Below are positions 47,875 to 64,000 of a DNA stretch of 64,000 nucleotides, in pieces. The notes below the pieces were generated by a model. That model was not told the origin of the DNA and ran no database searches. It saw only the letters and a list, made by a program, of their open reading frames with translations. The stretch covers positions 12,400,001-12,464,000 of the forward strand of contig NZ_CP107853.1 in assembly GCF_036013525.1 (NCBI RefSeq). Direction: 5' to 3'. Every line of letters starts with the position of its first letter. The first letter of the stretch is position 1. The translations under genes were made by a program, and so were the position numbers. The stretch comes from Nonomuraea sp. NBC_00507 (GTDB lineage: Bacteria; Actinomycetota; Actinomycetes; Streptosporangiales; Streptosporangiaceae).

Positions 47875-50445
47875 TTACAACTGAGCGATCGGCAACACTC
47901 TCCTGACGCTCTGGCAGACCCCGTCGCTCGCGGCGGACGCCTGCAGGCGTTCAGGGGCCGGGACGCCGTAGTCGGTGGTGCGCTGCCTGACCGGCCTGCC
48001 GCTGACCTCGACCATCGCGCGGAGCTCACTGATGGTCTTGTACGAGCCGTTCTCCGAGCCGGCCATCCTGCTGATCGTCTCCTCCATCAGCGTGCCGCCG
48101 AGGTCGTTCACGCCGCCTTGGAGCACCTGGCGGCACAGGTCGTCGCGGAGCTTCACCCAGGAGCACTGGATGTTGTCGATCGCGCCGTGCAGCAGGATCC
48201 TGGCCAGCGCGTGCACCGCCCGGTTCTCCTGGTGCGTGGGGCCGGGCCGGGCGACGCCGGCCAGGTAGATGGGGGCGCTGGTGTGCACGAACGGCAGCAG
48301 CACGAACTCCGAGAACCCGCCGGTCTGCTCCTGCAGGCGCCTGATCAGCTTGATGTGCCTGACCCAGTGCAGGTGGGTGTCGACGTGGCCGTACATCATG
48401 GTGGACGTCGTCGGGATGCCGACCTTGTGCGCGGTCGTGATGACGTCGATCCACTCGTTCGTCGGGAGCTTGCCCTTGGTCAGCACCCAGCGCACGTCGT
48501 CGTCGAGGATCTCCGCCGCCGTCCCGGGCAGCGAGTCGACACCCGCCTCCTTCGCCGCCTCCAGCCAGTCCCGGACGGACATGTTCGTCCGGCTCGCCCC
48601 GTTGATCACCTCCATCGGCGAGAACGCGTGCACGTGCATGTCCGGCGTCCGCGCCTTCACGGCCCTGGCGATGTCGAAGTACGCGCTGCCGGGCAGGTCG
48701 GGGTGGATGCCGCCCTGCATGCACACCTCGGTCGCTCCGGCCTCCCAGGCTTCCTGCGCCCGGTCGGCCACCTGGTCGAGGCTCAGCGTGTACGCGTCGG
48801 CGTCGGTGCGGCGCTGTGCGAAGGCGCAGAAGCGGCAGCCGGTGTAGCAGACGTTGGTGAAGTTGATGTTCCTGTTGACGACGTAGGTGACGTCGTCGCC
48901 CACGGCCTGCTTCCTGAGGGCGTCGGCGAGGGCCGTCAGCTCGTCGAGCGCCTCGCCGTCCGCGCCGAGCAGCGCCACGGCCTCGTCGTCGGTCAGGCCC
49001 GCCGGATCAGCCTCGGCCCTCCTGAGCGCCTGCCACACCTCCCCCGCCACGCCACCCGCCGACACAGGGCCCGCCGGGCCGAGGCGGTCCCGCAGGGCGT
49101 CCCAGTCGCCGTAGACGTGGTCGAAGTCGTCCCGCCGGTCCTGGGCGCGCCCGGACGTGTCCACCTCGACGTGCAGATCCACGCGCCCCGACGCGGCGAA
49201 GCCGCCGTCGGGCTCCTGCCAGGGGCGGCCCTCCAGCACGGCGTCCTCCCGCGCCAGCCCGGTGGCCGGGTCCGCCAGGGCGGCGACGTGGGCGGTCAGG
49301 CGCGGGTCCAGCCACGGCTCCCCGGCCAGCACGTACTCCGGATAGATCGTCAGCCGCTCCCGCAGCCGGAACCCCGCCTCCCCCGTACGGGCGGCCAGCT
49401 CGTCGATCTGCGGCCAGGGCCGTTCGGGGTTCACGTGGTCGGGGGTCAGCGGCGACACCCCGCCCCAGTCGTCGATCCCGGCCCGGATCATGAGCTCGTA
49501 CTCGGAGTCCACCAGGTTCGGCGGCGCCTGGAGCCGGACGCGGGGGCCGAGGACCAGGCGGGCCACGGCGATGGTGGCGGCGAGCTCCTGCAGGTCGGCG
49601 TCGGGCAGCCCGCGCATGGCGGTGTCCGGCTTGGCGCGGAAGTTCTGGACGATGACCTCCTGGATCCCGCCGTACTCGCGGGCCACCCGCCGGATCGCGA
49701 AGATCGACTCGGCCCGGTCCTGGACGGTCTCCCCGATCCCGATCAGGATCCCGGTCGTGAACGGCACGTTGGTCCGCCCGGCGTCCTCCAGGACGCGCAT
49801 CCGTACCGCCGGGTCCTTGTCGGGCGAGCCGTGGTGCGGCTGCCCCTTCTCCTCGAACAGCCGCCGCGACGTCGTCTCCAGCATCATCCCCATAGACGGC
49901 GCGACGGGCTTGAGACGCTGCAAGTCACGCCAGCTCAGCACGCCGGGGTTGAGGTGCGGCAGCAGCCCGGTCTCCTCCAGCACCCTGATCGCCATCGCCC
50001 GCACGTACGACAGCGTGTCGTCGTAGCCGTGCGCGTCCAGCCACTCGCGGGCCTGATGCCAGCGGTCCTCGGGCCGGTCCCCCAGCGTGAACAACGCCTC
50101 CTTGCACCCCATCGCCGCCCCCTGCCGGGCGATCTCCAGCACCTCGTCCGGGCTCAGGAACGGCGACTCGAGCTTGTGCGGCGCGGTCGCGAACGTGCAG
50201 TATCCGCACCGATCCCGGCACAACCTGGTCAGCGGGATGAACACTTTCCTGCTGTAGGTGATGATCCCGGCCCGGCCGGCCGCCTCCAAGCCGGCATCAC
50301 GCACGCGGGAGGCGTGTTCCAGGAGTGAGTCGAGGTGGGGCCCACGAGCGTGCAGCAGTACGGTCGCCTCGGCGACATCGAGGCTCTTGCCGTCGCGGGC
50401 GCGGGCGAGAGCACGGCGGAACGCGGAATCACTGACCAGATCCAT
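47875..50445 (-). CDS. fbiC: FO synthase FbiC (CofG-CofH fusion)
   Basis: An 856-residue double radical SAM enzyme that makes the F420 chromophore FO from tyrosine and a pyrimidine of the riboflavin pathway. The N-terminal CofG half carries the cluster motif CRDRCGYC (Cys76, Cys80, Cys83); the C-terminal CofH half carries CYTGCRFC (Cys533, Cys537, Cys540). Both CX3CX2C sets are intact. ATG at 50445 ([15 protein letters not shown]); a longer frame upstream to 50580 is non-homologous. With fbiA and fbiB in the same window the genome encodes the full core pathway. Confidence 0.97.
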
Positions 50446-50494
50446 AAAGGCACAGTACGACGGGCTGGGTTCGCGACCCGCACCTAGGGGCCGG

Positions 50495-51388
50495 TCAGAA
50501 GGACCTGTAGTCCCGGACGGACATCCGCGGCCCGCGCGCGGGCGGGCGCAGTCCCGAGAGCGTGATGAGCAGCGTCGCACGGTGCCGATGCCCCTCGTAC
50601 GGCTCCAGCAGCCGCAACATCCCGGGATCGTCGGTCTTCTCCCCCGTCAGGGCGTATCCCACGATCTTGGCCAGATGGAAGTCGCCCACGCTCACGGCGT
50701 CGGGGTCGCCCAGGGCGCGCTGGCGCACCTCGGCGGACGTCCACACCCCGATCCCCGGCAGGGCCCGCAACAGCCGGTCGAGCTCCTGCGTGGTCGTGGC
50801 GGCCTCCAGCTTGTCGGCGTGCCAGGCGGCGTTGGCGATGGTCCTGGCACGGACGGCCTCGGCACCCGATCGGTGCCAGTGCCAGATCGGGATCTGCCGC
50901 CATACGGCCGCCTCGGGGATCACCCGCATGCCCTGGGGCGCCGGGCCGGGAGCGGGCTCTCCGTAGCGGCCGAGCAGCCACCGCCACGCCCGCCACGCCT
51001 CCCGCCCGACGACCTTCTGCTCCAGCACGGCGGGCACGAGGGCCTCCATGACGCGGCCGGACCGCCCGATCCGCAGCCCCGGATGTCTCCGGGCAACGTC
51101 CACCAGAAGCTCGTGTTTGATGACAAATCCGGAAACATCGTCGTCGGCCCCCACCAACGCCGGCAGCGTCTCCAGCGCCCACTCCGCCCCCGGGCCCCAC
51201 GCCTGCCCGTGCACGCATCCGCCCTTGAGGCTCACTCTGAGCGTGCACGGCCCGTCGGACGTCCTGGAGGTGCGCCACACGGCCCCGTCGGGGGTCTGCC
51301 GCCAGGTGGGATCGCCGTTGCCGTGCCTGTGCGGCGACAACGCCAGCCCCACGTCCAGCGGCCCCTCGGGCGCCCACCTGCGCTCCAT
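50495..51388 (-). CDS. AlkA-like DNA-3-methyladenine glycosylase
   Basis: A 297-residue HhH-GPD superfamily glycosylase that removes alkylated bases. The helix-hairpin-helix [12 protein letters not shown] is followed by [15 protein letters not shown], with the catalytic Asp in the GDFH segment; the N-terminal region forms the extra beta domain. The Lys typical of bifunctional enzymes is missing, consistent with a monofunctional type. ATG at 51388 or GTG at 51391 both give a good start. Reads toward fbiC. Confidence 0.85.
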
Positions 51389-51441
51389 CACCGATCCAGT
51401 CTGCCCCACCCGCTCAGACGTTCGGACCAGGTATGCGATCC

Positions 51442-52536
51442 TCAGACGTCGCTGGAATAACGCATCGCGCGCTCGGGCAGCTCGATTCCCGGCCAGATGC
51501 GCACGCCGTGCTGCAGCTCGTTGCCGGCCCCGACAATGGCCCCGTCGCCGATCACCGCGTCCCGCATCACCGTGCCCACGCACACCCGCGCGCCCTTGCC
51601 GACCACGGAGTCCGTCACGGACGCGCCTGCTTCGACGACGCAGTCGTCGATCAGCACCGAGCCGACCACCGACGCCCCGGCCTCGACGACCGCCCGCGCG
51701 CCGACCACCGTGCCGCCCCGGACCTTGGCCTCCGGCGAGATCCGGGCCCCGGCGAGCGCCAGGTATTCGCCCGTCGGCCCCGGCAGCGCGGGCGAGTGCA
51801 GCCGCCCCAGCACCAGGTCGCGCGAGCCCTGCACGAACGCGGCGGGAGTGCCGACGTCGAGCCAGTAGGTGCGGTCGGCATAGCCGAGCACGAGCTGCCC
51901 CGACTCGATCAACCCTGGGAACGTCTCCCGCTCCACCGACACGATCTGATCTTTGGGGATCGAGTCGATCACCGACCGGGTGAAGACGTAGCAACCGGCA
52001 TTGATCCGGTTGGTCACCGGATTGGGAGTCTTCTCCAGGAACGCCGTGACCCGCCCGGTCTCGTCGGTCGGCACGCACCCGAATCGCGTGGGATCGTCCA
52101 CTTCAGTCAAATGGAGCGTGACAGCGGCCCGCTGTGCGAGGTGCATACGCACTTGGTGCTCGATGTCGTGTCCGGACAGGATGTCCCCGTTCAAAATGAG
52201 CACGGGGTCGTCCGGGCCGGAGGTGAGCGCCTCGGCGGCGTTGCGGATCGCCCCGCCGGTGCCGAGCGGGGTCTCCTCCGTGATGTATTCAAGCGAGAGC
52301 CCGAATGCCGCCCCGTCACCGAAGACCGGCTGGAACATGGACGCCTTGTAAGAAGTCGCGAACACGATCCGGCGTACGCCGAACGATCGTGCCCGGGCCA
52401 GCTGGTGGGCCAGGAAAGGCACTCCGGCAGTGGGCAGCAGTGGCTTCGGCGTGCCCAGTGTCAGCGGACGCAGGCGCGTGCCCTGCCCCCCGACCAGGAG
52501 GATCGCCTCGAGGTCTGGCAAAGAGCTCTCCATCAC
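51442..52536 (-). CDS. Sugar-1-phosphate nucleotidyltransferase (mannose-1-phosphate guanylyltransferase-like)
   Basis: A 364-residue enzyme. The N-terminal Rossmann-like domain has VGGQGTRLRPLT (14-25), and ILNGDILSG with the metal aspartate; FLEKTPNP and NAGCYVFTRSV follow. The C-terminal part (from about 250) is a left-handed beta-helix of hexapeptide repeats (VVGARAVVEAGASVVGS). Orthologues make GDP-mannose from mannose 1-phosphate in actinobacteria, but dTDP- or UDP-glucose cannot be excluded. Gene follows the GT4 gene in the same direction. Confidence 0.88.
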   Translation of the reverse strand: MMESSLPDLEAILLVGGQGTRLRPLTLGTPKPLLPTAGVPFLAHQLARARSFGVRRIVFATSYKASMFQPVFGDGAAFGLSLEYITEETPLGTGGAIRNAAEALTSGPDDPVLILNGDILSGHDIEHQVRMHLAQRAAVTLHLTEVDDPTRFGCVPTDETGRVTAFLEKTPNPVTNRINAGCYVFTRSVIDSIPKDQIVSVERETFPGLIESGQLVLGYADRTYWLDVGTPAAFVQGSRDLVLGRLHSPALPGPTGEYLALAGARISPEAKVRGGTVVGARAVVEAGASVVGSVLIDDCVVEAGASVTDSVVGKGARVCVGTVMRDAVIGDGAIVGAGNELQHGVRIWPGIELPERAMRYSSDV

Positions 52537-52553
52537 TCCGTGAGATTATCGGA

Positions 52554-53669
52554 CTATTCGATGGCGCGTTGATAAGAGCTGAGATGCGCCTCGGCCGAGG
52601 CGTCCCACGTGAATTCACGTGCTCTGGCCAGCCCGGCCTCCTGCAGCTGCTTTCTCCGTTCTGCGGAGGCGAGCAACTCCCCGAGTGCCGCGGCGATGCT
52701 GTCCGCGTCCGGCTCAGTGTAGGCCACCGCGTCCCCGCCCACCTCGGGCAGCGAGGTGCGGTGTGTCGTCAGCACGGGCGCGCCGCAGGCCATGGCCTCG
52801 AGCACGGGGAGCCCGAACCCCTCGCCGCGCGAGGGGAAGGCCACCACGAGCGCCCCGCCGAGGAACCCGGACAGGTCGGGCGCCCGCAGGTAGCCGGGCC
52901 GCACCACCCTGACCGTGGCCTCGACCTCCCGGCAGGCGGCGTCGACGTCGTCCTCGTGCACGCCGCCGCCGAGCACCAGCGCGGGCGGCTTCTCCAGCCG
53001 CTTGACCGCGGTCGCGAACCCGCGGATGAGGTTCGGAACGTTCTTACGCGGATCCAGATTGCCGAGGAACGCCACATACGGCTGGCCGTGCAGCCCGCAC
53101 CGCATCGCGGCCCGGCGGATCTCGTCCTCGCTCGGCGGGTGGAACTGCGCCAGGTCGACGCCGTGGTAGGCGACGTCGATGCGGGTCGGGTCGGCGGCCA
53201 GCACGCGTACGAGTTCGTCGCGCGTCGCCTTGGACGGCACGATCACCCGCTGCGCGTGGCGTACGGCGGTGCGGGTGGCCGAGCGGAAGAACGACGCCCG
53301 CGGGCTGTGCTGGTCGGGCTCGGTGAACCAGGTGGCGTCGTGCACCGTCACGACGGTCGGCAGACCCGAGCTGAGCGGGATGGAGTAGTAGGGGGCGTGG
53401 ATGACGTCGGCCCCGGCCTGGCGCGCGAGCAACGGCAGTCCGGTCTGCTCCCAGGCGAGCCTGGCGGCCCTGTTGGTGATCGCGACGGGTCCGGAAAGCA
53501 CATCGGCGGAGGGCGCCAGCCGCCGATATCGATCCGCTTCGGCCCGCTGGCATACGACGGCGAGGTCGGCGCCGGCCCGGTGGAGGGCCGCCACGAGCCC
53601 ATCCACATATCTGATCAACGCGCCGCGGTCCGCGGGGACGGCCGCCGCATCGACGAGCACACGAGGCAT
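52554..53669 (-). CDS. GT4-family glycosyltransferase
   Basis: A 371-residue GT-B enzyme with MPRVLVDAAAVPADRGALIRY start, VTVHDATWF, a nucleotide-binding C-terminal half with FLGNLDPRKNV and the EX7E motif EGFGLPVLEAMACGAPV. It likely transfers mannose or similar from a GDP-sugar made by the next gene onto a lipid or wall glycan. Start ATG 53669 preferred over 53696 on homology; a GGGGAG lies about 12 nt before it. Confidence 0.9.
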   Translation of the reverse strand: MPRVLVDAAAVPADRGALIRYVDGLVAALHRAGADLAVVCQRAEADRYRRLAPSADVLSGPVAITNRAARLAWEQTGLPLLARQAGADVIHAPYYSIPLSSGLPTVVTVHDATWFTEPDQHSPRASFFRSATRTAVRHAQRVIVPSKATRDELVRVLAADPTRIDVAYHGVDLAQFHPPSEDEIRRAAMRCGLHGQPYVAFLGNLDPRKNVPNLIRGFATAVKRLEKPPALVLGGGVHEDDVDAACREVEATVRVVRPGYLRAPDLSGFLGGALVVAFPSRGEGFGLPVLEAMACGAPVLTTHRTSLPEVGGDAVAYTEPDADSIAAALGELLASAERRKQLQEAGLARAREFTWDASAEAHLSSYQRAIE

Positions 53670-53762
53670 ACGTAGATCTTCTCCCCTCAAGATCAACGTG
53701 GGACTGGACGTCCCCCTCTAAAGTTCAGCTTATGACCAGCCTCCCCTAAAAGGTGCGTCAAA

Positions 53763-54707
53763 TCACACCGAGTCCCGACGCGCCGCAATTCCCGCCAGGC
53801 CGGCGCAGATCAGGTCCCCTAGGACGATGACGATCCGGGAGGAAAGGGCGACCGCAATGGCGGAGCCGCGGTCGAGGTAAGGGGCCATCACCGCGACCAT
53901 GGCGACCTCCCGCACGCCCGCGCCCGCCGGGATCACGAAGGTCATGATGCCCAGGCACCACGACAACGCGAACGCGCCGACGGCGAACAGCAGGCCGCCC
54001 TGCGGGGCGATCAAGTAAAGGTGCACACCGTAGGCCGTCCAGCCGGCCAGCGCCCAGCCGAGCGCGGTCAGCATGCCGCGCCGGGTGAGCGGGCGCTCGA
54101 GCGGCTCCCGCTTGAGCCGCCGCAGCCCGAACGCGATCAAGGCGTTGATGACCTTGGGCTCGAGCAGGACCAGCAGCAGCGGGATGAGCAGCAGCAGCCA
54201 GCCGTATCGGTCCCAGCCGAGCGTGCCGAGCGTGACCAGCAGTCCGGTGGCGAGCTGGATGGGCATCATCAGGAAGAACGCCGCCGCGCTGCGTGAGCGC
54301 GGCACGCCGAGGTCGCGGCCCATCTCCATCTGGGCGAGCACGGGCCAGACGGCGCCGGGGATGTATTTGCCGAGCTGGCCCACGAAGAACACCTTGGCCG
54401 CGGGCCTGAGCGGCAGCGGCGAGCCGAGGTCGGCCAGCAGGGTGCGCCAGGTCAGCATGGCCCCGAGCAGCGCGACGACCACGGCGGCCAGCGACCCGGC
54501 CAGCGCGGCCCAGGACAGCCGGGCAAATCCGGCGATCACGGCGTCCCACTGCGACGCCACGGCCCACCCGCCGAACCCGAGCGCGGCGAGCAGGAACCCG
54601 AACCGAACGAGCTTCTTCGCCAGCGACCGGCCGGGGCGGGACGGCTTCACTGCGCCCTCGTCGGCGGAACCGCCAACGAGAGCCGCCTCACGGGGATGCT
54701 CGCTCAC
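53763..54707 (-). CDS. UPF0104/LPG-synthetase-type polytopic membrane protein
   Basis: A 314-residue protein with about eight transmembrane helices and family motifs VGQLGKYIPGAVWPVLAQ and FVIPAGAGVREVAMVA of the lysylphosphatidylglycerol synthetase transmembrane (UPF0104) family. The soluble synthetase domain is absent, so it is probably a flippase-like protein acting with neighbouring glycan genes. GTG at 54707 overlaps the stop of the methyltransferase gene (GTGA). Confidence 0.88.
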   Translation of the reverse strand: MSEHPREAALVGGSADEGAVKPSRPGRSLAKKLVRFGFLLAALGFGGWAVASQWDAVIAGFARLSWAALAGSLAAVVVALLGAMLTWRTLLADLGSPLPLRPAAKVFFVGQLGKYIPGAVWPVLAQMEMGRDLGVPRSRSAAAFFLMMPIQLATGLLVTLGTLGWDRYGWLLLLIPLLLVLLEPKVINALIAFGLRRLKREPLERPLTRRGMLTALGWALAGWTAYGVHLYLIAPQGGLLFAVGAFALSWCLGIMTFVIPAGAGVREVAMVAVMAPYLDRGSAIAVALSSRIVIVLGDLICAGLAGIAARRDSV

Positions 54708-55531
54708 AGCGGGCGCACCCGCTCGGGCGCCTGCGGCAGCGCCGCGCCCACGGGACGCCTCGGGGTCTTGGTGGCCACCCACAGGTATGTCGGCACGACC
54801 GGCAGCAGCAGCCTGAGCACCGCGCGCGGCGTCCTGGCCAGCGCGGCCTTCACCACTTTCCCCGGCAGGCCGGGGAACAGCTCGCCGCCGGCGAACCGGG
54901 TCGGCGTGGCGAGCACGGGGAAGGTGTAGTCCCACACGTGGAAGGCCCTGAGCATCTTCCGCAGCCCGCGCCGCGTCCTGAACCGCTCGTAGTAGTGATC
55001 GGCCCGCCCGAACGCCCGCACGTACCGATCGGCGAGCGCCGGAGGCAGGTAGGACAGGAAGGGCAGCTTGTAGTGCGGCTCCATCACCCCGAGCCGATTG
55101 CCCAGCCCCAGGTAGAGCACCCCGTCGTCGGAGAGCACCCGGTGCATCTCGGCCACCACCGCGTCCGGGTCGACGACGTGCTCGTAAATGTGGTTGAACA
55201 CCAGCACGTCGATCGACCCGTCGGGGAACGGCAGCGCCGTGCCGTCACCGCACACGAACGCCACCCGCTCGCCGAACCGGTCGGCCGCCTTGCGCAGCCC
55301 CGGCACGTCGATGTCGATGCCCAGCGTGTGCCCGGCCCCGGCCTGCGCCAGCTCGTCGGCGATGAAGCCGGCCGAGCATCCCACATCGCCCACGGTCAGC
55401 CCGCCGAGCGGCCCGCGGAAGTGCTCCAGCACAGCGATGATCTTCGCTGCCTTCCGCCGCCGTTTCTCCTCGTCGAGCATGGCGGACTGGAACTGCGAGT
55501 ATTCGAGCTGCGCGAGCCGTTGCTTCCCCAC
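54704..55531 (-). CDS. Class I SAM-dependent methyltransferase
   Basis: A 275-residue methyltransferase. Motif I TVGDVGCSAGFIADEL, the acidic end of strand 2 (LGIDIDVPGL), motif II GDGTALPFPDGSIDVLVF and HIYEHVVDP are present (Methyltransf_11/25 type). Target unknown; sitting between glycan genes suggests a lipid or sugar acceptor. The GTG start (VGKQRLAQLEY) at 55531 has no ideal ribosome site. Divergent from the SPFH gene by 82 bp. Confidence 0.85.
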   Translation of the reverse strand: MGKQRLAQLEYSQFQSAMLDEEKRRRKAAKIIAVLEHFRGPLGGLTVGDVGCSAGFIADELAQAGAGHTLGIDIDVPGLRKAADRFGERVAFVCGDGTALPFPDGSIDVLVFNHIYEHVVDPDAVVAEMHRVLSDDGVLYLGLGNRLGVMEPHYKLPFLSYLPPALADRYVRAFGRADHYYERFRTRRGLRKMLRAFHVWDYTFPVLATPTRFAGGELFPGLPGKVVKAALARTPRAVLRLLLPVVPTYLWVATKTPRRPVGAALPQAPERVRPL

Positions 55532-55613
55532 GGAGCCCCACAGTACCCATCTCGCCGCCAACCCGCTTTGGTACGGTGGCCGACCTGGCAGGAGAAGGAC
55601 GTACGGGGGCGAA

Positions 55614-56732
55614 GTGGCGCTGTTCGACAAGATCCGCGGCGAATTCATCGACATCGTCGAATGGCTGGACGACAGCAGGGACACCCTGGTCTGGCGTTTC
55701 CCCCGCTACGAGAACGAGATCAAGATGGGCGCCCGGCTCGTGGTCCGCGAGTCGCAGGTCGCGGTCTTCGTCAACGAGGGCGAGATCGCGGACGCGTTCG
55801 CGCCGGGCACGTACACACTGGAGACCCGGAACCTGCCGATCCTGTCCACGCTGAAGGGCTGGAAGTACGGCTTCCAGTCGCCGTTCAAGGCCGAGGTGTA
55901 CTTCGTCAGCACCCGCCAGTTCGCCGACTTCAAGTGGGGCACGCAGAACCCGGTCATGGTGCGGGACGCCGAGTTCGGGCCGGTGCGGCTGCGGGCGTTC
56001 GGCGCGTACTCGGCCCGGGTCACGGACGCGCGTGCGCTGCTGCGGGAGCTGGCGGGAACCGATCAGCAGTTCCGCACCGAGGAGGTGGAGGGCTACCTGC
56101 GCCAGATGGTCGTGGGCCGGCTCGCCCACGCGCTCGGCACGGCCGGCGTGCCGGTGCTCGACCTCGCCGCCAACCAGCACGAGATGGGGCGGCGGCTGGC
56201 AGAGGTCCTGACGGCCGACCTGGCCGGGGTGGGGATCGCGATCCCGACCTTCACGATCGAGAACATCTCGCTGCCGGAAGAGGTGGAGCGGGCGCTCGAC
56301 AAGCGCTCGCAGATGGGCATCGTCGGTGACCTCGGGGACTACGCGCGCTTCCAGGCCGCGAACGCGCTGGAGAACGCCGGCGGCGCCGCCGAGGGCATGG
56401 GCCTGGGCATGGGCATCGCCGCCGGCCAGCACATGGCCGCCTCCCTCGCCCCGCAACCCCAGCCGGGCCAGCCACCCACCGCCCCGTACTCCCAGCCCGG
56501 CCAACCACCCACCGCCCAGCATCCCCAGGGACCCCCGCCACTCCCCCAGTGGTACCTCGGCATCGGCGGGGAGCGGCGCGGGCCGTACGACGAGGCCGCC
56601 CTGCCCGCCGCCGGGCTGACCCCGGACGTGCTGGTCTGGAGGTCCGGGATGCCGCAATGGGCGCCCGCCCGTGACGTTCCCGAGCTGGCCGCCCTGCTGC
56701 GTGACACGCCGCCACCGTTGCCACCTGCCTGA
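55614..56732 (+). CDS. SPFH-domain protein with C-terminal GYF_2 domain
   Basis: A 372-residue protein. It starts at GTG (VALFDKIRGEFIDIVEWLDD) with an SPFH/Band 7-like domain of the YdjI 'virion core' type (about 25-250; ENISLPEEVERALDKRSQMG), then Gly-rich AAEGMGLGMGIAAGQH, a Pro/Gln linker and a GYF_2 domain (about 312-360: WYLGIGGERRGPYDEAAL and VWRSGMPQWAP). In Bacillus, the YdjI-like protein binds phage-shock-protein-type membranes. It is followed at 20 nt by a zinc-ribbon partner. Confidence 0.88.
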   Translation: MALFDKIRGEFIDIVEWLDDSRDTLVWRFPRYENEIKMGARLVVRESQVAVFVNEGEIADAFAPGTYTLETRNLPILSTLKGWKYGFQSPFKAEVYFVSTRQFADFKWGTQNPVMVRDAEFGPVRLRAFGAYSARVTDARALLRELAGTDQQFRTEEVEGYLRQMVVGRLAHALGTAGVPVLDLAANQHEMGRRLAEVLTADLAGVGIAIPTFTIENISLPEEVERALDKRSQMGIVGDLGDYARFQAANALENAGGAAEGMGLGMGIAAGQHMAASLAPQPQPGQPPTAPYSQPGQPPTAQHPQGPPPLPQWYLGIGGERRGPYDEAALPAAGLTPDVLVWRSGMPQWAPARDVPELAALLRDTPPPLPPA

Positions 56733-56752
56733 ACACGCCCGAGAGGACCCCC

Positions 56753-57808
56753 GTGACCACCACCACTCCGGCGCACCCGTGCGCGGGCTGCGGCGCGAGC
56801 GTGGCCTTCGCCCCCGGCACGACGACCCTCCAGTGCCCGTACTGCGGCCTGCGGCAGGGCATCGCCCCACCCACCCGCGACGTACGCGAGCACTCCTACG
56901 ACGCCTTCCTGGCCAAGCCCCGCGTCCACACCCTCGCATCCCGCCAGTTCACCTGCCCGGGCTGCGCCGCCCGCACGGAGAGCGACGCGATCTCCAAGGC
57001 GTGCCAGTTCTGCGGCACCGCCCTGGTGGCCGACACGGCGAACGACACCCAGATCGCCCCCGAGGCCGTGCTCCCGTTCGGGCTGGACCGGGGTGGCGCC
57101 AGGAACGCCCTGCGCGGCTGGGTGAAGACCCGCTGGTTCGCCCCGAACCGCCTCAAGAAGGTCAGCGAGGCGGAGACCATGAAGAGCACGTACCTGCCGC
57201 ACTGGACGTTCGACGCGCACACGGTCTCGGACTACGTCGGCCAGCGCGGCGAGCACTACTGGGTCACCAAGCGCCATAACGGCACGACCCGCCGCGAGAG
57301 GCGCACCCGCTGGTACCCGGCCGGCGGCAGGGTGGCGCGTGCCTTCGACGACGTCGTGGTCGCCGCCACGACGCAGGCGCCCAGGGAGCGGCTGGACAAC
57401 CTCCAGCCCTGGCCGCTGCAGCAGGCGGTTCCGTTCGACCCGGGCTACGTGGCCGGGCACCACACCCTGCGCTACGACACCGAGCCGCAGACCGGCCTGG
57501 AGCAGGCCAAGACCGTCATGGCCGGGGTCATCCACGACGACTGCCGCCGCGACATCGGCGGCGACGTGCAGCGTGTCACCTCGGTCGACACGAGCTACTC
57601 GCACGTCGCGTTCAAGCTGGTGCTGCTGCCGGTGTGGATCGGGAATTACGTGTACGGCGGCAAGACGTACCAAGTGCTGATCAACGGCATGAACGGCGAG
57701 GTCCAGGGCGACCGGCCGTACAGCGCGCTCAAGATCGCCCTGGCGGTGCTCGCCGCAGTGGCGCTCGTCGGGCTTGTCGTCTGGCTTTACCTGGCGAACC
57801 GCGCGTAG
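56753..57808 (+). CDS. Zinc-ribbon membrane protein (partner of SPFH protein)
   Basis: A 351-residue protein with two zinc ribbons, CAGCGASVAF...CPYCG (about 10-32) and CPGCAARTE...CQFCG (about 68-87), then a soluble beta-rich region and one C-terminal transmembrane helix (about 324-347). The arrangement corresponds to actinobacterial YdjJ-like proteins that accompany SPFH proteins. GTG start. Anchored in the membrane with ribbon domains inside the cell. Function unknown. Confidence 0.82.
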   Translation: MTTTTPAHPCAGCGASVAFAPGTTTLQCPYCGLRQGIAPPTRDVREHSYDAFLAKPRVHTLASRQFTCPGCAARTESDAISKACQFCGTALVADTANDTQIAPEAVLPFGLDRGGARNALRGWVKTRWFAPNRLKKVSEAETMKSTYLPHWTFDAHTVSDYVGQRGEHYWVTKRHNGTTRRERRTRWYPAGGRVARAFDDVVVAATTQAPRERLDNLQPWPLQQAVPFDPGYVAGHHTLRYDTEPQTGLEQAKTVMAGVIHDDCRRDIGGDVQRVTSVDTSYSHVAFKLVLLPVWIGNYVYGGKTYQVLINGMNGEVQGDRPYSALKIALAVLAAVALVGLVVWLYLANRA

Positions 57809-57839
57809 CGTCTGCGATTCTCTGTGTTTGCCTGAGGAT

Positions 57840-59861
57840 TTACGGCAATCCGGGCGGGCGTGGCGCGTGGCGGGCCGCCTCCGTAGGCTCCCAGGGGGAG
57901 GACAGGGGTGGCGGTGACACGGTGGAAGCCGGTCCGGTGGTGAGGATCGCGTACAAGCCCTGTACGTCCCGCCGGTGGGCGAGATGCCTGGGGTGCCTGG
58001 CCCGCCGGACGCTGTCCCGTCCCGGGCGTGCCGGGGGCGGGGGCGGGCACCGTGCGCCGGTCAGGCACACGGCTGAACGTCTTGTGACATGTCGTGGCAG
58101 GGCGGTTGGTCTGCCGCCGTTGGGGGGTGGGGCGGTTCTTGTTGCGGTCCCGGGCTTGAGGGCGAGGGTGCACGTCGGTGCGGGTGCGCCGGGCCCGTCG
58201 CGCCGCACGGGTGGGTTTTTCCTGCGGCGCGAACGGGCCACGTTGCCCTCCCGGGTCACTGCGATGCTGCGCACGCCGGTCGTCGAGTCGGTGCGGGTGT
58301 GCTGTTGGGCGAGCAGGCCGCGGGCGGCGATCCGCTCGGCCGCGGCGTGGTCGCGGTCGCACGACAGCCCGCACGCCGGGCAGTAGGCCCACTTCCAGCC
58401 GCGCTCGCCCAGCCGGTCAGGCGCCGGAACATGCCGCAGCATGCTGCCACCTTCACCGCAGCGCGGGCAGTAGCGGGAGGTGCCCCGGGCGGGCACCGTC
58501 ACCACCGCGATGCCGTCCTTGGCGGCCAGATGCCGGATCGCCTCGAGCACCGCGCCGCGTACCTGCCCTGACAGCGCGGCGTTACTACGACGCACCCCCC
58601 GCGCCTCCAGTGTGGCCAAATCCTCCAAGTAGATCACGCCAGCGCCGAGCGCGGCCGCCTGGTCGACCGCCCACCGAGCCGCCGACCAGGCCAGCGCCTT
58701 GTTCAGGTGCCGGATCCGGGCACACACCCGCTCATGCTCGACCTGAAGCACCCGATGCGCGCGCTCCAGCGCCACACGACGAGCATTGTCAGCATCGGCC
58801 GGGTCCAGCCCGGCCACCAGCGCCGCGCAGTGGTCGCGTTTAACGGCCAGGTGCTCGCGCTGGCCGCGCAGTCTGTGTAGCTTGGCCGAGATCGCGGTGG
58901 CGTCGTAGCGCAGCGTGCGCCCGTCGGAAATCACCCTGCCGTCGCGGAGTCGGGCAATGGCCCCGGTGAGGAGGGTGTCCACACCCCAGTCCAGGCCGAG
59001 CGCCATGGTGTGGCCGATGGCCGGGGCGGCCGGGATCTGCGTCTGGAACGGCAGATCGATGCGCACCTTGCCAGCGGCGATGCGCACCGTGGGGGTGCAT
59101 AGTGTGGCCTGGTCCGAGACAGTGGGCGGCAGCGTGAACGCGATGGCATGCCACGCCCAATCCTTGCGGGAGGCGGGCGAGGCGGTCAGCGGCAACTGCA
59201 CTCGCAATACGGCACCGGAAACACCGGTGCCCATGTCGCCGGTGCGGGTCAGGATGACCAACTGCTTGTCGGCCGCCGCCAGCACCGCCTGGGCGGCGGC
59301 CTGAGGTGGTTCTTCCACGTCGGTGATGTCGACCGGCAACACACCGTCGCGCTGCAGCACGGCGCAGATCTGGCGTGTACGGTTACGGATCTCCGCCGCG
59401 CTGACCCCCACCGGCAGCGCCGCGCGCAACGCCTTCCATTCCACTTCGGTACGTCGCCGCGGGTTCTCCGGCCAGGTGGCCAGCATCGCCGCCACGACGT
59501 CCCGCCGGTGCAGCGCCGCCCGCAGCATTCGGGCCGCCTGCTCCTCGGAACACCGCCGCACCCGATCCGAGCTATATACCCCGCCGTCGGTCACTCCGGC
59601 GGCACACCCCCAGCCCAGCCTCCGGATCGCCATCCACCCTTTGGTCGGCAACGCCCGCCCATCCGGCCCGACACCGGCGGCGAGCAGATCCAGATCCCGC
59701 GCATTCCACCGCTCAGCAACGATCCCGACGGTCATGGCCTGCATCAGCGCAATCAGCCAGGCCACCCGCTCAGCCAGCACCCGCTCGGCCGCCACCTGCC
59801 CGGTCACCTCGACAACGGCCCGATGCGCGGTACAGGTCGCGGTCGCCACAATCGCCGCCAT
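57840..59861 (-). CDS. tnpB: Stand-alone TnpB-like RuvC nuclease
   Basis: A 673-residue protein from ATG 59861 (GTG 59867 also possible; GGAAGGGTGG precedes both). The RuvC-like nuclease triad is complete: Asp291 in LGLDWGVD, Glu413 in VIYLEDL, and Asp504 in CDRDHAAAERIA. A four-cysteine zinc ribbon (Cys465, Cys468, Cys494, Cys497; YCPRCG and YCPACG) lies between the last two, as in TnpB and Cas12. It is longer than typical TnpB (about 400), with about 270 residues before RuvC-I and a Pro/Arg-rich tail of about 130 residues that may not be protein-constrained. No TnpA recombinase and no CRISPR array adjoins it. RNA-guided DNA cleavage is inferred from the family. Confidence 0.85.
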   Translation of the reverse strand: MAAIVATATCTAHRAVVEVTGQVAAERVLAERVAWLIALMQAMTVGIVAERWNARDLDLLAAGVGPDGRALPTKGWMAIRRLGWGCAAGVTDGGVYSSDRVRRCSEEQAARMLRAALHRRDVVAAMLATWPENPRRRTEVEWKALRAALPVGVSAAEIRNRTRQICAVLQRDGVLPVDITDVEEPPQAAAQAVLAAADKQLVILTRTGDMGTGVSGAVLRVQLPLTASPASRKDWAWHAIAFTLPPTVSDQATLCTPTVRIAAGKVRIDLPFQTQIPAAPAIGHTMALGLDWGVDTLLTGAIARLRDGRVISDGRTLRYDATAISAKLHRLRGQREHLAVKRDHCAALVAGLDPADADNARRVALERAHRVLQVEHERVCARIRHLNKALAWSAARWAVDQAAALGAGVIYLEDLATLEARGVRRSNAALSGQVRGAVLEAIRHLAAKDGIAVVTVPARGTSRYCPRCGEGGSMLRHVPAPDRLGERGWKWAYCPACGLSCDRDHAAAERIAARGLLAQQHTRTDSTTGVRSIAVTREGNVARSRRRKNPPVRRDGPGAPAPTCTLALKPGTATRTAPPPNGGRPTALPRHVTRRSAVCLTGARCPPPPPARPGRDSVRRARHPRHLAHRRDVQGLYAILTTGPASTVSPPPLSSPWEPTEAARHAPRPPGLP
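58192..58239 (-). other. Strong hairpin within the 3' part of the tnpB-like gene
   Basis: Left arm GGCCCGTCGCGCCGC (58192-58206) pairs with GCGGCGCGAACGGGCC (58224-58239), 15 bp with one bulged base and a 17-nt loop. It lies some 60 codons after RuvC-III, where the low-complexity tail begins. In TnpB loci the guide (omega) RNA scaffold overlaps this place. A second small hairpin (57837-57852, GGATT/AATCC) contains the stop codon. Confidence 0.5.
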
Positions 59862-60045
59862 GCGCACCCACCCTTCCCCGGGACCCGAACCCTTCACAAC
59901 ATCGTGCACACGTGACGTTACAAACAGCCACCGACAGTTCCCGCCCACCCCACCACTTGAAAAACGTCGGCACCTAAGCGACTCAAGGGTGGCCGTAACA
60001 CACGCCCAGGTTCACTCGGCTGATCAGGACAACGCTCTAATCCCG

Positions 60046-61686
60046 CTAGGTGCACACGTTCGTCTGCTGCGAGGCCGTGATGGTGCTCTGCTTCACGCTG
60101 TCGGGCAGCTCGGTCACCTTGACGGACTCGAAGTCCTCACCGACGACAAGCTGGATCACCGGGCCGCTCTTGGGCGCGGTCCCCGCGGCCGCGGTCGCCG
60201 GGACGTACGCCTGCGCGTTGGTCGCCGGCACCTTGCCCGCCGCCGGAGCCGGCTTGGGCAGGACCGCGCCGGCGAGCGTGTCGGCGTAGTCGGGCGCCGT
60301 CTCGATCGTCTTGGCGTAGTGGATCTCGCTCTTGGCCATGCTCTGGCCGTCCGCGGCCTCGTAGTTGCCCACGCCCACGACGTTGAAGCCCTGCTCGGCG
60401 AGCTGGTCGGCGACTTCCTTGGCCTTGCCCACGGTCTTGGTGCCGTTGAGCACCTGGACCTTCACCTGCTGCGGCTTGACGGTTTCCTTGGGCTTGGCGC
60501 TGGCGCTGGCGGACGGCGCCGGGACGGCGACCTCGGTGTCGGTCTTGACCGAGGTGAACAGCTTGGTGGCGTCGGGCTCCTTCCACACCACGCGGGCCTC
60601 CGGGTTCTCGGGGTCGGGGACCCACGGGACCGTCGTGAACTGCACGCCCTTGGCCGTCAGCTGCTTGGCGCTCATCGCGATCTCGATGAGCCGCTCGGTG
60701 TCGTTGGCCAGGTCGGGGTCCATGGTGACGGACCCGGCCGCGGCGGCGATGAAGTCCCGCAGCTTGCCCACGTCGGTCATCAGATCGCTGCTGGTGGCCT
60801 TGGCGACGACCTTGCTCAGGAAGATCTGCTGGCGCTTGATGCGCTGGATGTCGCTGCCGTCTCCGTATTTGCGCAGGCGCACGTAACCGAGCGCCTTCTC
60901 GCCGTTGAGCAGGCTCTTGCCCGGCGGCAGGACCAGCTTGGACGCCTTGTCGTTGACGCCGGACTTGAGGCAGATCTCGATGCCGCCGAGCGCGTCGACG
61001 ATGTTCTTGAAGCCGCTGAAGTCCACCTCGACGAAGTGGTTGATGCGGATGCCGGTGAGGGTCTCGATGGTGGACATCGTGCAGGCGATGCCGCCGGTGT
61101 TGTACGCCGCGTTGATCATGTCGCGGTGCGGCGCCATCTCCTGCTTGGTGGTCTCGTTCTTGCACCGGGGGATCTGCACCATCGAGTCGCGCGGGAAGCT
61201 GATCAGCCGTGCCTTGTCGCGGTTGGGCGAGATGTGCATCAGGATGATCGTGTCGGTGCGCTTGCCGCCCGCGTCAGCGGTCCTGGCCAGCTGCTGGCCG
61301 TATTTCGCGTTGCCCTCGCCCGCCCGGGTGTCGGAGCCGACGAGCAGCACGTTGAGCGCGCCCGTGTCCGGGGGACGCGGGTTGATGATGTCTTCCTTGA
61401 CGCTCTTCTGGGTGATGTTGCCGAAGGCGTCCCGGTAAACGGTGTAGGCGGTCAGCGAGCCCGCGACCATGACCGACGTGACGCCGATGCTGATCCAGGC
61501 CAGCACTCGCATCTTGCCCTGGCCGCCCCCGCCGCCGCGGTGGCTACGCGACGGCCGGTCGTCGGGTGGCGGCGGTGGCGGGGCGGCCGCCGCGGCCCTG
61601 CGCGCCATCCTGCTGCCGGGCTGGGTGGGGGCGCCCCTGCGGTCCTGTGCCGGGTCGGCTACCGGCACGCTTCTGTACTCACTCAT
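60046..61686 (-). CDS. LytR-CpsA-Psr (LCP) family cell-wall ligase
   Basis: A 546-residue protein. The cytoplasmic N-terminus is Pro/Ala-rich (1-57), one transmembrane helix spans about 61-80, and an LCP domain (about 110-330) includes VLLVGSDTRAGEG, DTIILMHISPNRDKARLISFPRDS and GYVRLRKYGDGSDIQRIKRQQ. A C-terminal LytR_C domain (about 405-520) has VQVLNGTKTVGKAKEVAD. LCP enzymes attach arabinogalactan, teichoic acid or capsule to peptidoglycan. The closest upstream genes make the precursors, which fits. ATG start. Confidence 0.94.
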   Translation of the reverse strand: MSEYRSVPVADPAQDRRGAPTQPGSRMARRAAAAAPPPPPPDDRPSRSHRGGGGGQGKMRVLAWISIGVTSVMVAGSLTAYTVYRDAFGNITQKSVKEDIINPRPPDTGALNVLLVGSDTRAGEGNAKYGQQLARTADAGGKRTDTIILMHISPNRDKARLISFPRDSMVQIPRCKNETTKQEMAPHRDMINAAYNTGGIACTMSTIETLTGIRINHFVEVDFSGFKNIVDALGGIEICLKSGVNDKASKLVLPPGKSLLNGEKALGYVRLRKYGDGSDIQRIKRQQIFLSKVVAKATSSDLMTDVGKLRDFIAAAAGSVTMDPDLANDTERLIEIAMSAKQLTAKGVQFTTVPWVPDPENPEARVVWKEPDATKLFTSVKTDTEVAVPAPSASASAKPKETVKPQQVKVQVLNGTKTVGKAKEVADQLAEQGFNVVGVGNYEAADGQSMAKSEIHYAKTIETAPDYADTLAGAVLPKPAPAAGKVPATNAQAYVPATAAAGTAPKSGPVIQLVVGEDFESVKVTELPDSVKQSTITASQQTNVCT

Positions 61687-61854
61687 ACGCCCCCTAGCCT
61701 CGTTCCTCGCGCTCGCGCGCCGGCTTGGTCGTTCCGCGCCACGAGACTAGGTCAGGTTCGGCGTGTCCGGTGTGACGACCGCCGGAAACGGCCGTGACCC
61801 GGGCGTGATGTTTCCGCGGGCAAGCATACTCAGAGCCGGACATGAGGTGGAATA

Positions 61855-63327
61855 TCATTCGCTGAACTCTTTCTGGCTTCCTGACTGATTTCGCAGGTCA
61901 GGCCTGATGCACAGGGCCGCGGCAAGACAGGCCAGAGGTACGGCCGGCAACACATAGCGATAGTCGAACTCCGCCGCGGCGGCCGGTGTGATCAGCAACA
62001 CAATGGCCACCGACCACGGCACCGGCCAGGACGGAGCTCCCGCGAGGCGCCCTGCCTTTCGCCTGCGCCGGAGCTCGGCGATGGCCGCTATGGGAGGCAC
62101 CAGGAGGACCCCCAGGAGCAGCGGGCCGGGCAGCCGCACCATGCTCTGGTAGGCCCTCAGCCATCCGGCATAGGGCTCGACGATCTCCGTGCCGATCGCA
62201 CCTTGCTCATAGAGCTTGGCATACTCGGCGCCGACCTGCGCGGGATAGCGCCCAGGTGGTCCCGGTGGCGTCACGGGAAACTGGTAATAAGCGTAGATCT
62301 CCTGGTCCGGATAGACCGGGCGGTCCCACCGGAACGTGCGGCCGAGCTCGGTCAGCACGGAGGCGGCGTAGTCGAGCGGCTGCTTGACGATCGCCAGGGT
62401 CGCGAACCTGGCCGCCAGGTCGTCGGTCTCCTTCGTGAACGTGATGCCCGGCAGCCGCACCAGAGGCGCGTCCTTGGCCCAGATGTACTCCTGGGACGGC
62501 GGACGCTGCTCGGGCGGGCGCGGGTCGCACAGGACCTTCAGGTCCGGAGGCGGGTCCATCCTTGCGCAGTCGGCGAACGACATCGTCCTGGCGTACAGGA
62601 AGGCGCCGTTCGCGCCGATGAGGCCGACCCGCTGGTAGGTGGCGTAGAACCAGGCGCCGTAGGCGACGAGCGGCACCAGGGCGGCCGCCAGCAGCACCCC
62701 GGCGTGCCCCACCCGTCTGCGCAGCAGCACCCCGGTGTGCCCCACCCGTCTGCGCAGCAGGAACCAGGCGGCGAACACCGCGATGAGCGGCTGGCCGACG
62801 GTCCTGGTCAGCGTGGCGGCGGCCAGCAGCAGCCCGATGGCGGCGACCGTGCTCGTCCGGCGCGTCGTGCACAGCGCCACGGCGGACACGACCAGGAACA
62901 TGAACAAGGTGTCGGACACCAGCAGGTGCTCCAGCTCGACCTGGTAGGCGTCGAGCAGCACGGGCACCGTGGCCAGCGTCGCCGCCCACCGGGGAGCCTT
63001 TCTGGCAACCCGGTAGATGAGCACGCCGGTGGCCAGACCGAGCAGATGCTGGACCGCCGCCACCGCGGCGAAGGAATGGAACGGCTCCAGCAGCTTGATG
63101 AACATCGAGTAGCCGGCCGGGCGCACCAGGTCGGGGCGCGGCTTGAAGACGGTGACGATGTAGGTGTAGGTGTCGGGGAACCACAGGGCCGGGCGGTAGC
63201 CCAGCATGGCCAGGGCGCGCAGCAGCGTGCCGAGGGTGAGCACCACGAGGAACCACCGGTGCCGCCGGGCCACACCGGCCCACCGGCCGCTCAGCGCGGG
63301 CTCGGCCGCGCGAACCGCCGACGTCAC
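61855..63327 (-). CDS. Polytopic membrane protein, GT-C glycosyltransferase-like
   Basis: A 490-residue protein with about ten transmembrane helices. An early loop (ALWFPDTYTYIVTVFKPRPDLVRPAGYSMFIKLL) has an acidic Asp next to Pro and aromatic residues, as in GT-C and mannosyltransferase-like proteins (GT39 and related); the donor would be a polyprenyl-phospho-sugar. The GTG at 63327 (VTSAVRAAEPALSG) has AGGAGG 8 nt upstream and is preferred over the longer GTG at 63378. An internal 33-bp duplication inserts LLRRRVGHTGV twice. Confidence 0.75.
   Translation of the reverse strand: MTSAVRAAEPALSGRWAGVARRHRWFLVVLTLGTLLRALAMLGYRPALWFPDTYTYIVTVFKPRPDLVRPAGYSMFIKLLEPFHSFAAVAAVQHLLGLATGVLIYRVARKAPRWAATLATVPVLLDAYQVELEHLLVSDTLFMFLVVSAVALCTTRRTSTVAAIGLLLAAATLTRTVGQPLIAVFAAWFLLRRRVGHTGVLLRRRVGHAGVLLAAALVPLVAYGAWFYATYQRVGLIGANGAFLYARTMSFADCARMDPPPDLKVLCDPRPPEQRPPSQEYIWAKDAPLVRLPGITFTKETDDLAARFATLAIVKQPLDYAASVLTELGRTFRWDRPVYPDQEIYAYYQFPVTPPGPPGRYPAQVGAEYAKLYEQGAIGTEIVEPYAGWLRAYQSMVRLPGPLLLGVLLVPPIAAIAELRRRRKAGRLAGAPSWPVPWSVAIVLLITPAAAAEFDYRYVLPAVPLACLAAALCIRPDLRNQSGSQKEFSE
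62689..62754 (-). repeat. 33-bp tandem duplication in the GT-C-like gene
   Basis: Two 33-bp copies (62689-62721, 62722-62754) differ by one base and encode LLRRRVGHTGV and LLRRRVGHAGV, in frame, adding 11 residues in a cytoplasmic loop. A third partial copy follows. Confidence 0.9.
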
Positions 63328-63446
63328 CCGCCCATCCTCCTGCTTGTCCGGCACGTCGCGTACGCTACCGGCCGTCACACGACACCCGCGCCATGAGCGG
63401 CCGCCGTGTGATGGCGCACACGTGCACTGGGTACGCTCGCTCTCCG

Positions 63447-64000
63447 ATGGAACTCGATCGATCCGGCCGGGTGCTCGCCGCGCTCTCGGTGGCGCCCGCG
63501 CTCGCCGTGGCGGGCTGGCTGCTGGCCGGGCTGCCGCTGCTACTGCTCGGCCGGTTCGCGCCGCTGCCCACGCTGCTGCTCGGCGTGCCCGCCGCCGCCC
63601 TGCTGTGCTGGGCGGGGACGCGACAGGCCGGCAAGGTGGTCGAGGCCACGGTCTGGCAGGTCGCCGGCGTGGTGGCGGTCGCGGCGGCGTCGGCCGTGTT
63701 CAACGGGTTCATGCACAGCGAGCAGTTGATCGTCAGGCGCGACCCGGCCACCTATGCGCAGTACGCCGCCTGGATCGCCGGCCACGGCGCGCTGCCCATA
63801 TCCGTCCAGCCGGAGGCGTTCGGCGGGGCCGATCCTTGGCTGCTCTTCGAAGGCGTCGGGTTCTACGACGTGGACGGAGGGGTGGCGCCGCAGTTCATGC
63901 CGGGAGCGCCGATGATGTTCGCGCTCGGCCACTGGCTCGGCGTGCCGTTCGCGGTGCCGGCCGTGCTGGGCGGGCTGGCCGTGCTCACGGTGGCCGGAGT
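63447..64000 (+). CDS. Polytopic membrane protein, 5' part
   Basis: The first 184 codons are in the window: MELDRSGRVLAALSVAPALA, several hydrophobic helices, then an outward loop QLIVRRDPATYAQYAAWIAGHGALP and GVGFYDVDGGVAPQFMPGAP. The latter resembles the DPxxY and acidic loop motifs of GT-C type membrane glycosyltransferases. Divergent from the previous gene, 119 bp apart. The rest lies outside the window, so the family is uncertain. Confidence 0.7.
   Translation, partial: MELDRSGRVLAALSVAPALAVAGWLLAGLPLLLLGRFAPLPTLLLGVPAAALLCWAGTRQAGKVVEATVWQVAGVVAVAAASAVFNGFMHSEQLIVRRDPATYAQYAAWIAGHGALPISVQPEAFGGADPWLLFEGVGFYDVDGGVAPQFMPGAPMMFALGHWLGVPFAVPAVLGGLAVLTVAG

Follow-up and report, generated by a model that had tools for sequence, protein, structure and literature searches.

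A probable IS607-derived tnpB-only element of Nonomuraea and its predicted guide RNA, which would be completed by bases of the insertion site

The 64,000-nucleotide stretch of Nonomuraea sp. NBC_00507 analysed here, which we refer to as the window, spans positions 12,400,001 to 12,464,000 of contig NZ_CP107853.1 in a genome of 12.9 Mb. Its minus strand carries a tnpB-like open reading frame (ORF; 57840..59861) within a tnpB-only element of 2234 bp (57809..60042, minus strand), which lies between a candidate zinc-ribbon gene and a LytR-CpsA-Psr (LCP) gene. An initial reading of the letters alone, the original prediction, had placed here a stand-alone, unusually long TnpB-like RuvC nuclease without a recombinase. 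The ORF was as described, with an ATG at 59861 and a product of 673 aa, of which residues 1 to approximately 547 are in the frame of the family.

The RuvC residues Asp291 (58989..58991), Glu413 (58623..58625) and Asp504 (58350..58352, all minus strand) and the four cysteines (C465, C468, C494 and C497) were found where the original prediction had put them, and none of them varied in the 44 aligned proteins or in the 240 fetched homologues. The window protein passed the Pfam Cas12f1-like_TNB domain (48.2 bits, cut-off 26.3), and its top match in PADLOC was a Cas12f profile. In a predicted model, the top-ranked solved folds over residues 3-539 were those of Cas12f and TnpB, and the alignment included the N-terminal half, whose fold had been named earlier as a point to check. 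The window protein is likely an RNA-guided enzyme that would cut DNA. Its resemblance to Cas12f (type V-F) lies in these folds and in the PADLOC match; it differs in that the structural-alignment identity is 13-14%, its predicted RNA is the transposon end, and there is no array. A repeat search of 50000-64000 returned four weak direct-repeat families only and no array-like spaced repeats, as the original prediction had held, and a link to CRISPR was rejected on this basis.

The ordered core of the protein comprises about 540 residues, compared with the 408 residues given for ISDra2 TnpB (PMC10821889). The proposal that the protein exceeds common TnpB by about 270 residues thus stood for a long core but overstated the excess, because the tail is out of the family frame, its predicted local distance difference test (pLDDT) values are low (below 50 for residues 558-673 of the model), and the end of the ORF overlaps the predicted structured RNA. 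The extra protein length is partly illusory. In the ten other aligned copies the core frame continues into a basic tail (EGNVARARR...RTRTDLHPRP...), whereas the window copy alone is one base short in an A-run at 58216..58220 (minus strand), so that residues past about 547 fall outside the family frame; the missing base could reflect either a genuine change or a misread homopolymer. Frame-changing indels in the other copies occurred from about nucleotide 1937 of the reference onward, with the exception of one copy (L011) that has an 8-base deletion at its start. Across all 11 copies, third codon positions varied clearly more than the other two up to about nucleotide 1760 of the reference, which indicated real coding sequence there; the excess was nearly absent from 1760 to 1820, moderate from 1820 to 1880 and weak or absent past 1880. 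The position of the stop is not conserved, as the ORF of one other copy in the genome runs 565 bases beyond the right end and that of L011 runs 41. Two tail motifs, written as strict regular expressions, matched 90 and 67 of the 240 homologues, and the tail was rejected as a conserved domain given its low pLDDT and its being out of frame in the window copy.

Homologue searches at E<=1e-3 returned 726 proteins with the window protein as query and 1277 with an Actinoallomurus relative as query. Each search scored about 7990 candidates, of which the best 120 were listed; the median length in the 240 fetched was 664 aa. The named homologues among the matches listed were actinobacterial (Nonomuraea, Actinoallomurus, Streptomyces, Micromonospora, Catellatospora and others). 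The branch is a large, little-described actinobacterial group of a known transposon kind (IS607/IS1341-type TnpB). The ratio of non-synonymous to synonymous changes indicated purifying selection on transposase-less copies, in a run that left out four pairs with L011, whose start had been assigned to the wrong frame (no value for three of them, 0.40 for the fourth).

No match to the family transposase was found beside the window copy, in agreement with the original prediction, or beside five further copies in the genome. The sibling at C1:8327205, in contrast, has an intact 216-aa protein with an N-terminal helix-turn-helix (HTH) and a resolvase domain, which is encoded upstream of tnpB, overlaps its start, and passes the NCBIfam IS607 transposase model NF033518 (124.8 bits, cut-off 110). 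The window copy is therefore stand-alone, but its family is not. Of 11 resolvase-domain matches in the genome, only this one adjoins a copy, and the left end of the transposase-bearing copy is common to transposase-less copies (59 bp, 78% to one of them). Among 28 scanned tnpB loci, a set that counts the window locus, contains two loci in duplicate and has some pieces cut off by contig ends, three had transposase matches (one intact and two decayed, the latter from Actinoallomurus) and 25 had none; a linked TnpA is thus not a constant feature of the orthologues, a point that had been put forward for checking. Transposase matches at E<=1e-15 occurred in six of 54 Nonomuraea genomes, counting that of the window, and a TnpB relative adjoins four of the five further transposase loci, one of those four having an unbroken transposase frame.

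Because the sibling carries an intact IS607 serine transposase, we assign the parent to the IS607 type and the window element, as judged from sequence, to the non-autonomous tnpB-only (IS1341-like) derivatives of such a transposon. This narrows to IS607 the suggestion that an IS605/IS607 element had lost its transposase. The alternative that the element derives from IS200/IS605 and was moved by a Y1 transposase could draw on 15 Y1 matches in the genome and on the report that tnpB-only elements often occur in genomes with IS605 (PMC9956272). The nearest of these matches is, however, 126 kb from a full-length copy, and the transposase that does overlap tnpB in the sibling, or adjoins TnpB relatives at the further loci, is of the IS607 type, so that we rejected this origin as the least credible of the explanations weighed here. 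The IS1341 group is described as having only tnpB between the transposon ends, and copies with transposase remnants are classed there as IS605/IS607 decay (PMC9956272); the window element shares the tnpB-only layout and differs in that its parent is traceable through the sibling.

The genome contains seven full-length copies, including that of the window, at unrelated places and with unrelated guides; the other six have 59-73% protein identity to the window copy. Comparison of 20 distinct copies (seven from this genome, ten from G068, a strain labelled as the same species, two from N. basaltis and one from a metagenome-assembled genome) revealed a sharp right end, ...AGACG, which was followed by CT in 19 and by GT in the metagenomic copy (L012). 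The left end reads GTATGGACTGC and variants of it, and AGG precedes it in all 12 copies in which it was placed (ten by tally, plus L010 and L018); in the eight others it was not found or lay beyond the fetched piece. A scripted match in the window copy was discarded from the tally as a chance match inside the end of the LCP gene. For the window element itself, the right end at 57809 is set by the 20 copies and by empty sites, and the left end at 60042 by alignment to the canonical left end, from which it diverges, so that its first base is inexact.

Empty sites in relatives indicated how insertion had occurred. At the site of the copy at C1:8327205, all five relatives that span the junction have CAGG^CT, joined exactly, and at that of the copy at C1:10878472 seven of seven relatives run through the junction without a break, each with CT and one with CAGG. 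The CT therefore belongs to the target. No target duplication was seen at the empty sites of the relatives compared, and insertion was clean, as in IS607.

Three other copies showed individual features. The copy at G000:C1:10878472 (L056) has a 15-bp deletion starting about 17 bases past the right-end junction, where seven of seven aligned relatives keep the 15 bp; no such deletion was present in one other copy compared in the same way. This could be a cleavage scar, because it lies near the cuts at 16 and 22 nt reported for IS607 TnpBs (PMC11061315), or could be due to chance. The copy at G000:C1:1284581 (L054) lies inside what is apparently the 3' end of a tRNA gene, as judged from its left flank (TTCGAATCTCCTAGG^CTCCACCA); ARAGORN found no tRNA in the interrupted locus, and a tRNA scan of the whole window found none. 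A truncated copy at G000:C1:7839978 (L059) retains the left region and the first 40 tnpB codons, where similarity ends.

Analyses of the right end identified a predicted guide-RNA (omega/reRNA) scaffold at 57807..58013 (minus strand; the covariance model spans 58036-57807). RNAalifold placed 50 pairs in the 20 copies, 14 of them with changes on both sides. Four measures exceeded the shuffled alignments, with none of 500 shuffles reaching the observed value: paired cells (97.0% compared with 90.2%), pairs with double changes (14 compared with 9.2), double-change cells (61 compared with 18.8) and the covariation score (0.233 compared with 0.113). This control can be inflated by related rows, and derivation from the same alignment favours the structure; sliding the partners by 1-3 columns reduced the double-change cells to 2-10. 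The closing stem is formed by AGCGTC (58008..58013) and GACGCT (57807..57812, both minus strand), which pair in the standard way in all 20 copies, and the last two bases of the latter (CT, 57808-57807) come from the target, so that the scaffold would be completed by the host site. The metagenomic copy, in which GT follows the right end, has an altered partner base as well (ACCGTC); this compensatory change was seen in a single sequence. Five of five Actinoallomurus copies, which are closely alike and 47-48% identical to the window protein, end in GAGACGCT and have a single AGCGTC 245-262 bases upstream.

In ISXfa1, one fixed base of the right flank is reported to be built into the RNA scaffold (PMC10711439); the same principle would hold here with two bases (CT). 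Since the scaffold ends with target-derived CT, and following the logic of ISXfa1, the predicted guide of the window copy is the 20 nt from 57806 down (57787..57806, minus strand), from the 3' end of the zinc-ribbon gene. The guide RNA would thus consist of a scaffold at the element end and a guide taken from the flank. The corresponding pre-insertion target, CAGGCTACGCGCGGTTCGCC, is split by the element in the window, and the CAGG^CT+guide site is intact in G068 (L095, L102) and in another Nonomuraea, G017 (L021). These were the three loci with an intact site in a search that covered 106 loci rather than whole genomes; the remaining 103 had none.

We consider the element as a whole to be a tnpB-only IS607 derivative with a flank-guided RNA, with a probability of roughly 0.87. 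The assignment draws on the ends, the empty sites, the sibling-linked transposase, the nuclease residues, the predicted fold, the covarying RNA and the match of the guide to empty alleles, from which we infer expression, RNA processing, a target-adjacent motif (TAM), cleavage and mobilisation in trans. The sibling's serine transposase would supply mobility in trans, with insertion at AGG^CT and no target duplication. The tnpB transcript would serve at its 3' end as the scaffold, whose closing stem takes in the target-derived CT, and the adjoining flank would become the guide. With this RNA bound, TnpB would then cleave the empty site that matches the guide, next to AGG(CT), and element-free alleles would be lost, or repaired from an element-bearing copy, so that the element is retained or spread.

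Several observations weigh against this assignment. The profile comparison proposed in the original prediction, positive with Cas12f1-like_TNB and PADLOC, fell short with NCBIfam guided_TnpB (63.9 bits, below the cut-off of 100). The junctions do not share the identical crossover dinucleotide of IS607, as the left end reads NAGG|GT (GG) and the right end GACG|CT (CG), and an exact dinucleotide-crossover model was rejected. One of five RNA measures, the number of additional pair types, stayed at shuffle level (31 compared with 29.5; 121 of 500 shuffles), four of the six closing-stem pairs never vary, and the double change there comes from L012 alone. The single-sequence fold of the window RNA did not outperform shuffled sequences (z -0.73; 43 of 200 were equally good) and was dropped as evidence. 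The Nonomuraea-built covariance model found the Actinoallomurus RNA at chance level (best E 0.07), its hits at E 0.07-0.13 falling at the 5' motif in three of five copies, compared with a chance-like hit of 0.063 in L018. No Rfam family matched the scaffold, the three Rfam matches all being below gathering score and none over it. A RAGATH-18-type RNA has been reported for one set of IS607 TnpBs; RAGATH-18 was absent from the Rfam hits obtained in 57700-60300 with E up to 10, its presence in the library used being unverified. Finally, the window copy lacks the basic tail of the family and has a divergent left end (GCGG in place of NAGG), which makes its own activity less sure.

These last features would also suit a dead relic, that is, a decayed IS607-type copy with no function left. 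Such a reading shares the proposed origin and denies activity to the window copy only; the lost tail, a diverged left end at an inversion breakpoint and the missing transposase are all in keeping with it. Against this, the 547-residue core has no stops, all catalytic residues are present, the scaffold and closing stem are intact, and the A-run deletion could be a sequencing error. We regard loss of all function in this copy as possible, if rather doubtful.

Domestication was also considered, in which the element would be fixed at this place for a host function, either as a TldR-like regulator or as an immune effector without CRISPR; the original prediction had suggested an adapted RNA-guided effector lineage. 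Such a role would be consistent with the lack of a transposase or an array at the window copy, and with purifying selection acting on copies without a transposase. However, a same-species strain lacks the element and has the empty site, copies occupy unrelated sites with unrelated guides, and the transposon ends are kept, with a predicted guide that is simply flanking DNA. TldR proteins have lost nuclease residues, whereas the RuvC residues here are intact in 240 of 240 homologues. Domestication is consequently very improbable, and that suggestion was not upheld.

The genes on either side provided a history for the locus. The candidate zinc-ribbon gene (56753..57808, plus strand) retains its TAG stop (57806-57808), which overlaps the insertion point, and the LCP gene (60046..61686, minus strand) ends at the left end of the element. 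The neighbours named in the original prediction were recovered above Pfam cut-offs for SPFH/Band 7 (334.5 bits) and LytR-CpsA-Psr (166.3 bits), but not for the zinc-ribbon (22.9, cut-off 27). Comparison with relatives, also proposed there, gave the empty site in G068 together with a rearrangement: an 8,316-bp segment, whose limits in G068 are the zinc-ribbon end and the LCP end, runs the opposite way there, and the element is present at neither site. In the window, the LCP gene marks the start of this 8.3-kb segment, which is inverted relative to that strain. In seven relatives printed past the zinc-ribbon gene, the next gene starts as in G068, which indicated that the order in the window is derived. 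At the second breakpoint the genome of the window has a 94-bp mini-element (G000:C1:12468360-12468453, window coordinate 68360-68453, beyond the window) whose left end is preceded by CAGG and whose bare right end is followed by CT. The simplest history would be recombination between two oppositely oriented copies, through host recombination or the transposase. The window copy would then be a hybrid, which would account for its odd left end.

Viral carriage of the family was rejected, as none of the 68 pattern matches obtained with A1 in viral contigs was confirmed as a relative. Two 33-base tandem duplications were observed in predicted ORFs elsewhere in the window, at 62689-62754 (97% alike) and 56447-56512 (85%).

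Among known systems, the closest is the IS607 family (e.g., ISXfa1 and ISFba1), in which a TnpA serine recombinase accompanies TnpB. The autonomous sibling has the same arrangement of an HTH and resolvase-type TnpA upstream of an overlapping tnpB, and the TnpB fold and a guide beyond the right end are likewise shared. The TAMs reported for IS607 TnpBs, AGGAG and GAGGG (PMC11061315), resemble the AGG(CT) of the window family. The family differs in its length, with a core of about 540 aa plus a basic tail compared with an average of 390 aa (PMC11061315), and in its insertion motif AGG^CT, the flanks of IS607 and ISC1904 having been described as showing little pattern (PMC4058570). It differs further in having GG and CG at its two ends rather than one shared dinucleotide. 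The kind of element is thus already known; what sets this branch apart is the long core, the NCBIfam score below cut-off, the AGG^CT insertion, the GG/CG ends and the two target bases in the closing stem. In the open-access literature we found no title on this TnpB family and no paper joining TnpB with Nonomuraea; subscription papers were largely outside this search, and the branch may be described there.

For an IS605-type element in plasmids, cutting by TnpB is reported to favour retention or spread of the element (PMC11870625). More tentatively, we speculate that TnpB elements of this branch may owe their persistence and spread mainly to acting as homing units that lack a transposase, each with a guide for its own empty site, although we think this unlikely. 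Under such a scheme an empty allele in relatives or in incoming DNA would be cut next to AGG(CT) and the element copied in by repair, and transposase, insertion motif and RNA scaffold would have co-evolved, two bases of every target completing the closing stem.

These findings suggest that a large group of long proteins from actinobacteria, which databases list as "zinc ribbon domain-containing" or "transposase", are likely RNA-guided nucleases of IS607-type elements. The predicted guide RNA, the insertion motif and the natural targets make activity directly testable. The target-derived CT in the scaffold, together with the one compensatory change, suggests a tie between target choice by the transposase and the structure of the guide RNA, and the core of about 540 residues, longer than that of common TnpB, may help to show how Cas12 effectors grew.
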